A stretch of DNA of 22,508 nucleotides from a virus, in the IMG/VR virus record IMGVR_UViG_3300027747_001711, positions 1 through 22,508 of that record; one strand, given 5' to 3'. The first letter of the stretch is position 1. Every line of letters begins with the position of its first letter. The notes below the pieces were generated by a model that was not told the origin of the DNA, made no database searches, and saw only the letters and a list, made by a program, of their open reading frames with translations. Shown here in pieces: positions 6,282 to 17,485 of the stretch. Both the position numbers and the translations under genes were made by a program.

Positions 6282-6289
6282 GGTAAATA
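6282..6289 (+). promoter_or_regulatory. Putative late promoter box GGTAAATA (for S74 fibre)
   Basis: GGTAAATA lies 58 bases before the ATG at 6348, in context CCTGGTAAATAGCTT. The predicted leader ends with AAAGGGAG ahead of the start. No strong terminator hairpin is seen between the previous stop (6244) and this box. Confidence 0.6.
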
Positions 6290-10637: not shown

Positions 10638-11282
10638 TTGTTAAAGTCCGGGAAAACTATCTTTGATAAACAACCTGCTTTGAGTGAGCAGGTTGTAATC
10701 TGCATTCCAACAAATGGAATGATGCATTCATTGAGTGCGTTTTGCCTAACCAACGCAATACGATTCACTGAAAAGCAAGGTATACCAGTAGTACTAGAAA
10801 TGGATGCAGGTACAGTATTGAGCAATCAACGACAAGTATTGTTAGATAGTGCTATTAATACTCATCAAGCAGATCACGTCATGTGGTTTGATAGCGATAT
10901 GACATTTCCAGAAGATGTCATTGTCAGACTACTTGAACACAATAAAAATGTTGTTTGTGCAACATACTCCAAGAGAGTAGAGCCATTTCATGTCACTGCT
11001 TTTTACAACATTAATCCTGTTGAACCAGTGGATGTCAGCGGTCACGGTCTAGCTGAAATAAAATACACAGGAATGGGTTGTGTATTAATGAAGGCCAGTA
11101 TCGTCAATGAAATTCCAAGCCCACATTTTCCTCTAAAGTGGCATGCACCCAGTTCTTCATGGCACGGCGAGGATATGGGTTTTTGCGAAGTGCTTTCGCA
11201 GAACAATGTTAAAATATTTTGCGACTTAGATCTTAGTCGAGAGATTGGGCATTTAGGGACACAAGAATTTTATGTGAAGTAG
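10638..11282 (+). CDS. Glycosyltransferase-like protein (GT-A fold)
   Basis: This 214-aa protein resembles family 2-type GT-A glycosyltransferases found in phages. An N-terminal strand (QVVICIPTNGMMHSLSAF) is followed by SNQRQVLLDSA, then HVMWFDSDMTF containing a DSD (DxD-type) site for metal and nucleotide-sugar binding. Next come VVCATYSKR and a GMGCVLMKASIV segment with a later GEDMGFCE acidic motif, typical of the acceptor side. It probably transfers a sugar to a phage or host surface molecule; the substrate is unknown. The only start upstream of the conserved fold is TTG (10638), or a second TTG near 10677; no strong Shine-Dalgarno precedes either, so translation probably depends on coupling to the previous gene. 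Its last 50 bases overlap the opposite-strand gene at 11233. Confidence 0.75.
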   Translation: MLKSGKTIFDKQPALSEQVVICIPTNGMMHSLSAFCLTNAIRFTEKQGIPVVLEMDAGTVLSNQRQVLLDSAINTHQADHVMWFDSDMTFPEDVIVRLLEHNKNVVCATYSKRVEPFHVTAFYNINPVEPVDVSGHGLAEIKYTGMGCVLMKASIVNEIPSPHFPLKWHAPSSSWHGEDMGFCEVLSQNNVKIFCDLDLSREIGHLGTQEFYVK

Positions 11283-14556: not shown

Positions 14557-14573
14557 AGGTCCATTATGGACCT
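14557..14573 (-). promoter_or_regulatory. Perfect palindrome in the gp14 leader
   Basis: On the minus strand AGGTCCA, loop TAA, TGGACCT forms a 7-bp stem that ends directly at the GAGG ribosome site of gp14. A folded stem leaves GAGG free but within one base of it, so it could position or partly hinder ribosomes, or protect the 5' end of the late transcript expected to start near 14578. Confidence 0.5.
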
Positions 14574-14585
14574 ATTCTATTGTGT

Positions 14586-14593
14586 TATTTACC
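14586..14593 (-). promoter_or_regulatory. Putative late promoter box GGTAAATA (for gp14 operon)
   Basis: Read on the minus strand the context is AGCGGTAAATAACAC, matching the other five boxes. It faces away from the sigma-70 promoter at 14607-14635 and would start RNA near 14578, upstream of the gp14 leader hairpin. Confidence 0.6.
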
Positions 14594-14606
14594 GCTTAGA
14601 TGTCGC

Positions 14607-14635
14607 TTGACAGGTTCGCAAAGATAAGTTATAAT
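14607..14635 (+). promoter_or_regulatory. Perfect sigma-70 consensus promoter
   Basis: TTGACA (14607-14612) and TATAAT (14630-14635) are separated by exactly 17 bases, the textbook bacterial housekeeping consensus. The expected start is near 14642, giving a leader of about 26 bases with GGAG before the ATG at 14668. It should fire with unmodified host polymerase, so the gene at 14668 is probably expressed early. Confidence 0.88.
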
Positions 14636-14667: not shown

Positions 14668-15921
14668 ATGGCCACAGCAACTAAACGCACAGTCGCAAAA
14701 CCCCCTAAAAAGAAAAAAACACTGGGCCGAAGCACTCGTACTGCCAGAGACTCTGGCACAGTAAAATTTGATGCCAATGGCAAGCCCAAGCTAAAAGCCA
14801 TCCAAGTCACTGACATTCATCGTATGGGGCACGAACCAGAATGGACTGAACAGGGCACATGGGATGAAGTGCAACGCAGAATTCAAATGAGCCGTGCGTT
14901 CAACTGGTACAACTACTCCTGTGATCACAAAGATGCCAGGGCATTTTTTGAAGCATATTGTGCTACTAAAGAAGAATTGGCACATTATCCTGCCAAGTTC
15001 AAAGCAGTCAATGACAGCCAGTATACTTTAACAGTTGGTTGGGTGTGCCGTATGGTGCTGGCAGGATTTGAACTGCAAAATGATGAGGAGCGTCACATCC
15101 ATCAGCTAATTGGAAACTTGGAAGCTCGTCTTGCTTCTGAGAAAAATGTGGTAGTTGATCCAGCGGTACCAGTGGTCAAAAAAGAAACAATCCAAGACAG
15201 GCTTGCTGAAAAGTTCAGTGAAGCAATGGGCGAGATTGAAGGAGCAATTGACGAGTTTATAACTGAAGGCAAAGAATTTTCTGCTTACAAATTCTTACAA
15301 GGGCAAAACATTTCTGTGCAGTACATTGCCAAAGTGGCAGAATTCATCCAACCCAAAATTAACGAACTAAATGAATTGCTGGAAGGAAGGGACAGCCAGC
15401 TCATGGAAGGGTACAAACACATGAGCAAGCGTGATGTCAAAGCATTAATCAAGTTCTACGAGGCAATTATCAATGATGCTAGTGCATACAAAACTAGTAA
15501 AATTGCCACTCGTGCCAAGCCCAAGCGCAAGCCAGTGCCACCTGAGCGCCAAGTTAAAGGTCTAAAGTATCTTAGAGAGTTTGCTGAGCTTGGTCTCAAG
15601 AGCATTAACCCAACTGAGATCTTAGAAATGAGTGAGCTGTGGACTTACAATACCAAGACTCGCAAGTTGGGTCGCTTTGTTGTAGCCATGCATGGCGACA
15701 TGGTAGTGGGACAGTTGGGCGTTAAGGGCTCTGCTATCATTGGCTTTGATGAGATCAAGAGCACTTGCAAGACCCTGCGTAAACCCGCAGAAAAGCTGGC
15801 AGAGTTTAAGACACAGGGCAAGCCCGGATTGCGTAAGTTTATGGACACCATTAGATCAGTGGAAACCAGGTTAAAAGGGCGCATTAGTCCAGAAACAATC
15901 TTGCTCCGAGCAATCAAGTAG
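14668..15921 (+). CDS. Unknown protein with lysine-rich N-terminal tail (417 aa)
   Basis: Function is unknown. The first 45 residues are disordered and strongly basic (TKRTVAKPPKKKKTLGRSTR), like nucleic-acid-binding tails. The rest is predicted mostly helical, with a FNWYNYSCDHKDARAFFEAY segment near residues 75-95, a long helical region with TIQDRLAEKFSEAMGEIEGA, a second basic patch (RAKPKRKPVPPERQVKG, about residue 285) and a C-terminal segment ending RISPETILLRAIK. Proteins with a similar basic head occur near neck genes in marine T4-like phages, from memory and without a named function. It sits alone behind the perfect sigma-70 promoter and reads toward gp13, 42 bases downstream. Early timing and the charged tails suggest a nucleic-acid role; this is inference. 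Confidence 0.85.
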   Translation: MATATKRTVAKPPKKKKTLGRSTRTARDSGTVKFDANGKPKLKAIQVTDIHRMGHEPEWTEQGTWDEVQRRIQMSRAFNWYNYSCDHKDARAFFEAYCATKEELAHYPAKFKAVNDSQYTLTVGWVCRMVLAGFELQNDEERHIHQLIGNLEARLASEKNVVVDPAVPVVKKETIQDRLAEKFSEAMGEIEGAIDEFITEGKEFSAYKFLQGQNISVQYIAKVAEFIQPKINELNELLEGRDSQLMEGYKHMSKRDVKALIKFYEAIINDASAYKTSKIATRAKPKRKPVPPERQVKGLKYLREFAELGLKSINPTEILEMSELWTYNTKTRKLGRFVVAMHGDMVVGQLGVKGSAIIGFDEIKSTCKTLRKPAEKLAEFKTQGKPGLRKFMDTIRSVETRLKGRISPETILLRAIK

Positions 15922-15930
15922 GTTTTGTGG

Positions 15931-15961
15931 AGTGTCTCCGGTAAATAGTCTCGGAGACACT
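15931..15961 (+). promoter_or_regulatory. Late promoter inside an SD-sequestering hairpin (gp13 leader)
   Basis: AGTGTCTCCG (15931-15940) and CGGAGACACT (15952-15961) form a perfect 10-bp inverted repeat around an 11-base loop. The late box GGTAAATA (15940-15947) spans the loop start. The 3' arm contains GGAG (15953-15956), the only ribosome site for the gp13 ATG at 15964. RNA read through from upstream would fold and hide GGAG; RNA begun at the late box (about 15953-15955) lacks the 5' arm and leaves it free. T4 genes e, soc and 49 are known to work this way. Confidence 0.75.
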
Positions 15962-15963
15962 AT

Positions 15964-16719
15964 ATGGCAGACGACACAAAAACATCCGAACGATCAAAAG
16001 TACAACGATTCATTGAGCTTAGTCTCGGTGGTGGCATGGTTGATATTGAGCTTGACAAAGAACACTACGATCTTGTGATTGATAAATCTATTGATTACTA
16101 CCGCCAGCGAAGCAGTCGTGCAGTAGAAGAAAGCTTCATGATTTTAAATTTACAACCTGCCGAAAGCACATACTATCTGCCAGACGAAATCAATGAAGTT
16201 ACCAATGTTTACAGATCCAGTGGCGGCGGTATTGGAACCACGGCCGCATCATTTGAACCGTTTGAAGCTGGCTATCTTAATATGTATATGCTGAATGCCA
16301 CAAGAGGCCAAGGACTTGCAACTTTTGAGTTATACATGGGTCAGCGCAAGATGCTTGGCTACTTTTTTGGTGCCAATTTGATGTTTACTTGGATTTCCGA
16401 AACAAAGCGTTTGACATTACATAGAAATATCAAAGGTGATGAACCAGTTATTTTACATACATTCAATTATCGTCCGGTTGAATCACTGCTGGCTGACACC
16501 CATTGCAAGCAATGGCTTAGAAATTACAGTTTGGCCAATGCAAAAATGATACTAGGACAAGCTCGTAGCAAGTTTGCAAGCTTGGCCGGACCGCAGGGTG
16601 GAGTACAATTGAACGGCAATGATCTGATCACACAAGCATCAGCTGAAATAGAAAAGCTGGAAGATGACTTGTCAAAATATTCAGATGGTGGCACACCACT
16701 GGGCTTCATAATTGGCTAA
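15964..16719 (+). CDS. gp13: Neck protein (T4 gp13-like)
   Basis: The 251-aa protein matches the T4 gp13 type: a head-completion neck protein that joins the portal vertex and allows tail attachment. Features are an N-terminal helical VQRFIELSLGGGMVDIELDK region with YDLVIDKSIDYYRQRSSRAV, then YYLPDEINEVTNVYR, a central variable part, WISETKRLTLHRNI, and a C-terminal helix region WLRNYSLANAKMILGQARSK followed by GGVQLNGNDLITQA. T4 gp13 is about 309 aa, so this is somewhat shorter. In T4 genes 13, 14 and 15 are contiguous and co-oriented; here 13 is split from 14-15 by a divergent gene. The start is fixed by GGAG seven bases upstream. Confidence 0.87.
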   Translation: MADDTKTSERSKVQRFIELSLGGGMVDIELDKEHYDLVIDKSIDYYRQRSSRAVEESFMILNLQPAESTYYLPDEINEVTNVYRSSGGGIGTTAASFEPFEAGYLNMYMLNATRGQGLATFELYMGQRKMLGYFFGANLMFTWISETKRLTLHRNIKGDEPVILHTFNYRPVESLLADTHCKQWLRNYSLANAKMILGQARSKFASLAGPQGGVQLNGNDLITQASAEIEKLEDDLSKYSDGGTPLGFIIG

Positions 16720-17401: not shown

Positions 17402-17409
17402 GCTAAATA
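17402..17409 (+). promoter_or_regulatory. Putative late promoter box 1 for tail sheath
   Basis: GCTAAATA followed by TCGTCAT. It is the upstream member of a tandem pair, 28 bases from box 2. Expected leader about 70 bases. Confidence 0.6.
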
Positions 17410-17429
17410 TCGTCATTTTTCGTTTTATA

Positions 17430-17437
17430 GCTAAATA
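17430..17437 (+). promoter_or_regulatory. Putative late promoter box 2 for tail sheath
   Basis: GCTAAATA followed by TCTTCAT; the 15-base unit matches box 1 at 14 of 15 positions. The expected leader is about 41 bases and includes a short AAGGG/CCCTT stem (17446-17465) and the GGAG ribosome site before 17486. Confidence 0.6.
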
Positions 17438-17485
17438 TCTTCATGAAGGGTAATGAGAATCCCTTAAGATTACGGAGATATTAAA

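Follow-up and report, generated by a model that had tools for sequence, protein, structure and literature searches.

The 22.5-kb stretch of viral DNA analysed here (the window; IMG/VR record IMGVR_UViG_3300027747_001711, positions 1 to 22,508) is a genome fragment from a large T4-like phage; its virion genes include one for a gp13-type neck protein, whose short leader nests a late promoter inside a hairpin that also contains the ribosome-binding site. We interpret this leader as a cis-acting translational switch that would silence gp13 on early read-through RNA and allow its translation from late RNA, a reading to which we give a probability of roughly 83%. The same early-off/late-on design had been proposed in a sequence-only reading of the window, and it is supported by the comparison of related leaders and by the modelling of their RNAs.

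Organization of the gp13 leader

The gp13 gene (15964-16719, plus strand) encodes a neck protein, or head-tail adaptor Ad2, of 251 amino acids (phrog_211, E 2.9e-36) with 40% identity to the neck protein of GAP32; the isolates closest to the window at gp13 are the jumbo phages GAP32, Atu_ph07 and PA5oct, all at about 40% identity. The leader at 15931-15961 on the plus strand reads AGTGTCTCCG-GTAAATAGTCT-CGGAGACACT and comprises two arms of 10 nucleotides each, the 5′ arm AGTGTCTCCG at 15931-15940 and the 3′ arm CGGAGACACT at 15952-15961, which are 100% complementary and separated by 11 nucleotides. The perfect 10-bp inverted repeat around a late box that had been described from the sequence is therefore present as claimed, the box GGTAAATA at 15940-15947 (plus strand) occupying approximately the whole hairpin loop. 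The Shine-Dalgarno (SD) sequence GGAG at 15953-15956 lies within the 3′ arm and ends 7 nucleotides upstream of the gp13 ATG. The earlier claim that this arm holds the only GGAG before the start codon stands as to the location of the motif but not as to its uniqueness, since a second GGAG occurs at 15929-15932. The latter is 31 nucleotides from the gp13 ATG, too distant to serve as its SD, and is able to pair with CTCC at 15936-15939.

Late boxes of T4 span positions -13 to -6 relative to the transcription start (PMC1524935). Applied to the box in the loop, this spacing, together with a near-invariant distance of 5 nucleotides between box and GGAG in related leaders, predicts that late RNA starts at 15953 (plus strand), the first base of the SD, with a leader of 11 nucleotides. 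So positioned, the late promoter would yield an RNA that omits the 5′ arm of the hairpin.

Three copies of GGTAAATA are found in the window, where 0.74 would be expected (4 of 100 shuffles reach three), and all of them, at 6282, 14586 (minus strand) and 15940, lie 16-58 nucleotides before a start codon. Perfect stems of at least 10 bp with a loop of 3-20 nucleotides number four in the window, two being obvious terminators, against none or one in each of the eight Markov-1 simulations of the window from which their chance occurrence was judged. The folding energy of the 101-nucleotide stretch containing the leader is unremarkable (z = -1.49), and because the leader is not exceptional by this measure alone, we place the weight of the argument on conservation and covariation. 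A search of the window against Rfam gave zero matches, and an exact-sequence search with the gp13 leader returned no contig other than the near-identical one of loci L001 and L081.

Conservation and covariation of the hairpin

Leaders were read in 80 IMG/VR loci encoding gp13 homologs; the main clade has 61 members, the window included. Of these 61, 60 combine a stem, a box in the loop and a GGAG in the 3′ arm in the same nested order, and the distance from box to GGAG is 5 nucleotides in nearly all of them. The arms vary among phages yet match each other in each one, as illustrated by L033 (GTGCCTCC/GGAGGCAC), L023 (GCAGTCTTC/GGAGACTGC) and L047 (GGTATCTCC/GGAGATACC). The more distant clade formed by L072-L080 has stems of its own; in L076 the SD is part of the stem, and in the remaining loci it falls immediately beyond.

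Among 17 divergent leaders, 92.8% of the cells of the alignment are paired and two-sided changes are seen at five of nine pairs. The covariation score of 0.374 exceeds both that of shuffled alignments (0.193 +/- 0.026, with 0 of 500 reaching the observed value) and that of slid ones (at most 0.138). When 3′ arms were swapped among phages, 2000 swaps gave 242.5 +/- 5.9 paired cells with a maximum of 261, compared with 279 for each phage's own arms. As the shuffle, slide and swap controls ignore relatedness, changes were also counted on the gp13 tree, where pairs 4-7 require at least six changes (1, 1, 2 and 2), every one of them two-sided, and pairs 0 and 1 require four wobble changes. The inner six pairs contain eight U-G cells and zero A-C cells; departures of this kind indicate plus-strand RNA rather than a DNA palindrome. 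A search for compensatory changes in related leaders had been suggested as a check on the original proposal, and the outcome is that the arms do co-vary, the 5′ arm never drifting unmatched save for a few single mismatches. The compensatory changes point to selection on pairing, as expected of ribosome-binding-site sequestration of the T4 type, in a hairpin that is conserved as an RNA structure.

Modelled occlusion of the Shine-Dalgarno sequence

The SD is predicted to be paired in RNA started upstream of the hairpin. Across 56 distinct leaders, the modelled cost of exposing it averages 13.4 kcal/mol in the long RNA versus 0.8 in the late RNA, and in the long RNA of the window the four SD bases have a modelled probability of being unpaired of at most 0.001. 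On this basis, RNA from the sigma-70 promoter at 14607 would read through the upstream gene into gp13 with both arms aboard and fold the 10-bp hairpin, in which the gp13 SD would be paired and ribosomes kept off. Late in infection a gp55-type sigma factor would start RNA inside the hairpin, at G15953 by the T4 spacing, and this late mRNA, beginning with the SD itself and unable to fold the hairpin, would be translated.

Upstream gene, its promoter and the late sigma factor

The gene immediately upstream of gp13 (14668-15921, plus strand) encodes a protein of 417 amino acids belonging to phrog_11903, to which a Pfam search assigned no function. Its sigma-70 promoter, TTGACA-17-TATAAT at 14607-14635 on the plus strand, matches the consensus at 12 of 12 positions, in agreement with the sequence-only reading. 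In every main-clade or sister-clade locus that includes a correctly called start of this gene, 10-12 of the 12 positions are kept. In none of these loci is there a late box within 80 nucleotides of the upstream-gene start, the nearest being one TAAATA at -91 in L043. Homologs of phrog_11903 in phiM12, Ochrobactrum phage OC and DLP_6 are found near RNase H genes and outside the structural cluster, a neighbourhood that would suit an early or middle gene. As the gene preceding the upstream gene is on the opposite strand, read-through RNA into gp13 would most naturally come from the sigma-70 promoter, and the conservation of a same-strand consensus promoter of this type bears on early or middle transcripts carrying gp13.

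The gp55 gene is beyond the reach of the window, which is a fragment. Homologs of the gp55-type late sigma factor are encoded in all six of the relative contigs long enough or placed to show them (E values down to 2.7e-91), as well as in GAP32, RaK2, Munch, PA5oct, Atu_ph07 and T4, so that the contigs of the relatives point to late transcription by a gp55-type sigma.

Next to the sigma-70 promoter, a minus-strand late box at 14593-14586, belonging to a divergent virion gene, lies about 13 nucleotides from the -35 element, and this divergent late/early promoter pair (14586-14635) is kept in most relatives. The minus-strand virion gene has a 7-bp hairpin, AGGTCCATTATGGACCT, at 14557-14573 between its late box and its SD, and a variant of this hairpin is seen in the relative G002.

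Similar leaders in isolated phages and at other genes

Hairpins precede gp13 in seven isolated phages as well: ACCCCTAAA...TTTAGGGGT, or nearly so, in GAP32, CBB, XbC2 and BF; GCACCCCTAT...ATAGGGGTGC in Munch; and GCACCTC...GAGGTGC in PBECO4 and RaK2. Their sequences are unrelated to that of the window clade and their layout is alike: the 3′ arm contains the SD, and the late box lies within the 5′ arm or next to it. The modelled cost of SD exposure in these seven phages is 11.9-17.3 in the long RNA versus 1.0-3.3 in the late RNA.

The gp13 leader is not the only candidate of this kind. Two TAAATA boxes lie upstream of the tail sheath gene of the window (17404-17485), and a second putative switch can be drawn at 17430-17482 on the plus strand, in which the sequence AATATCTTC from the second box (GCTAAATA, 17430-17437) would serve as 5′ arm and pair with the SD arm GGAGATATT. 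It is weaker in the window than in the relatives, most of which have a small AAGGG...CCCTT hairpin between the box and the SD of the tail sheath gene. Enterobacterial jumbo phages show a related tail sheath arrangement in another sequence (AATCCTCC...GGAGGATT), and some of the isolated jumbo phages with a gp13 hairpin carry one at gp18 too. The endolysin gene of G002 (L115:5157-5825, minus strand) has AAAACTTCC-ATAAATA...GGGAGTTTT before its start, recalling T4 gene e. Taken together, these cases raise the possibility, which we rate at slightly less than an even chance, that in T4-like jumbo phages an SD-hiding hairpin around a late promoter is a standard means of silencing core virion and lysis genes, namely gp13, gp18 and an endolysin, on early read-through RNA, one that would have arisen or been rebuilt more than once from unrelated sequences, with a late start on the SD and an 11-nucleotide leader in the present clade.

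A few further leaders were noted in passing. In GAP32, the leader of GAP32_032 (L148:16348-16869), a virion structural gene amid small hypothetical genes, reads CCCCTAAATA...TTAGGGG and resembles that of GAP32 gp13. The strongest switch candidate of PA5oct is the hypothetical gene 135020 (L181:15020-16453), located upstream of a UvsX-like recombinase gene and carrying GTCTCCGT...GATAAATA...ACGGAGAC in its leader. A gene of 54 amino acids in G002 (L125:15175-15339, minus strand) is preceded by AGCCTCCAC-GCTAAATA-GTGATGGAGGCT and a T run, switch-like and terminator-like alike. Elsewhere in the window, a perfect 10-bp inverted repeat, ACAACCTGCT...AGCAGGTTGT, is found at 10670-10696 near the start of a glycosyltransferase-like reading frame (10638-11282).

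Discussion

A hairpin located 10 nucleotides past the stop codon of an early gene might be a transcription terminator or attenuator at which the early transcript ends before gp13, and the T run that follows the corresponding hairpin in GAP32, Munch and PBECO4 suggests that termination may contribute in those isolates. In the window clade, however, ATATGGC or a similar sequence lacking a T tract comes after the stem, and the window gp13 hairpin, which is not among the terminator-like elements listed, does not conform to the intrinsic-terminator pattern of a GC-rich stem directly followed by a T tract. Nor would termination account for a late promoter in the loop and an SD in the 3′ arm at fixed spacing, and we consider this explanation improbable. 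A processing or stability element, such as an RNase site or a structure protecting the 3′ end of the early mRNA, would likewise fit a hairpin that can form only in read-through RNA right after the early gene. Its overlap with the SD would then be incidental, and the nested box and the constant 5-nucleotide spacing between box and GGAG would be left unexplained; we regard this account of the leader as still less probable.

The symmetry of the element and its centring on the promoter could also suggest a DNA operator through which a dimeric protein controls gp13 transcription, for which T4 offers a precedent over the late promoter of I-TevI (PMC2988022). Against this, the arm sequence at the outer pairs is free to change provided that pairing stays, the inner departures from complementarity are U-G and never A-C, and GAP32 and Munch realize the same hairpin design at gp13 in different sequence. 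We hold an operator to be the least likely of these explanations, with odds very much against it.

For a translational switch, the phages in which gp13 adjoins another type of neighbour provide a natural comparison. L045 is the sole locus without the early gene among the 80; here gp13 adjoins a divergent virion gene, as established by tblastn, and the stem is down to six pairs, two of them wobbles, with an SD-exposure cost of 3.7. Atu_ph07 and Phosso share the divergent neighbour of L045 and have no strong hairpin, and the same is true of Vibrio 2.275.O and SCTP-2, which have a divergent gene upstream. In all five cases of gp13 after a divergent gene, the long-RNA cost is only 1.4-5.6.

Several observations weigh against the switch or limit its generality. 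L045 is a basal branch of the main clade and may therefore lack the hairpin ancestrally rather than through loss. In a sister clade of ten loci (L049-L051, L053-L057, L070 and L071) the early gene and its promoter are present without a sequestering hairpin (0.1-0.7 kcal/mol), which implies that the switch is not obligatory. Competition with the stem by the GGAG at 15929-15932 and another small hairpin, TTGCTCCGAGCAA, leaves the window with a modelled blockage of about 6 kcal/mol; this value and those of its closest relatives (about 5-7 kcal/mol overall) belong to the lowest in the clade. Unmatched changes occur once in L002/L003/L006 (C-A at pair 6) and twice in L021, and pair 7 is missing in one clade of 11 rows. 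A count over all late-box genes of six genomes showed no enrichment of switch-like leaders downstream of genes that lack a late box (16/168 vs 8/87, Fisher p = 1), in a crude classification that counts in chance TAAATA sites inside genes. The genome scan for such leaders recovered T4 e, 49, I-TevI and I-TevII and missed T4 soc, and is therefore neither complete nor specific.

The precedents named in the sequence-only reading, T4 e, soc and 49, are documented. Long early transcripts of gene e fold so that the SD is hidden, while late transcripts without the 5′ part are translated well, and the same inhibitory structures are described beside it for soc, 49 and I-TevI (PMC3014915). The gp13 leader shares the folding logic of gene e, although e encodes lysozyme and gp13 a neck protein, and differs from it in its box, GGTAAATA, and in a predicted late RNA that starts on the SD itself. 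The leaders of soc and 49 are unrelated to it in sequence, and soc is an accessory capsid protein whereas gp13 is a core neck component. In the giant phages CBB and GAP32, an ATAAATA late motif of the T4 type has been reported before structural genes together with a gp55-like sigma (PMC5259590); the word 'hairpin' appears nowhere in the text of that report, whereas in our analysis the nested design is present in front of gp13 in CBB as well as in GAP32. A literature search, partial in coverage, returned no earlier report of such a gp13 switch in these jumbo phages.

The present analysis would thus carry a switch known for a handful of genes in T4 over to giant phages and their core virion genes, its logic being found in a large uncultured jumbo phage family and in the culturable isolates GAP32, CBB, RaK2 and Munch. 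The family offers phylogenetic support for the pairing together with a natural contrast between phages that have the early gene and phages that lack it, and with culturable isolates at hand the purpose of such switches becomes testable. In T4 I-TevI, I-TevII, I-TevIII and segB and in Aeh1 mobE, the ribosome-binding site is sequestered in early or middle read-through RNA and freed by a late promoter located within the structure (PMC2988022). All of these code for homing endonucleases, and three are intronic; gp13, by contrast, belongs to the core virion genes and is flanked by a separate early-type gene and the tail genes. Where the T4 cases comprise an accessory capsid gene, a lysozyme, a nuclease and homing endonucleases, the targets here would be the gene for the neck protein and, probably, that for the tail sheath. 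The proposed mechanism is that of T4 e, 49 and I-TevI; what is notable is a core virion gene as its target, and its conservation and apparent rebuilding across jumbo phages.
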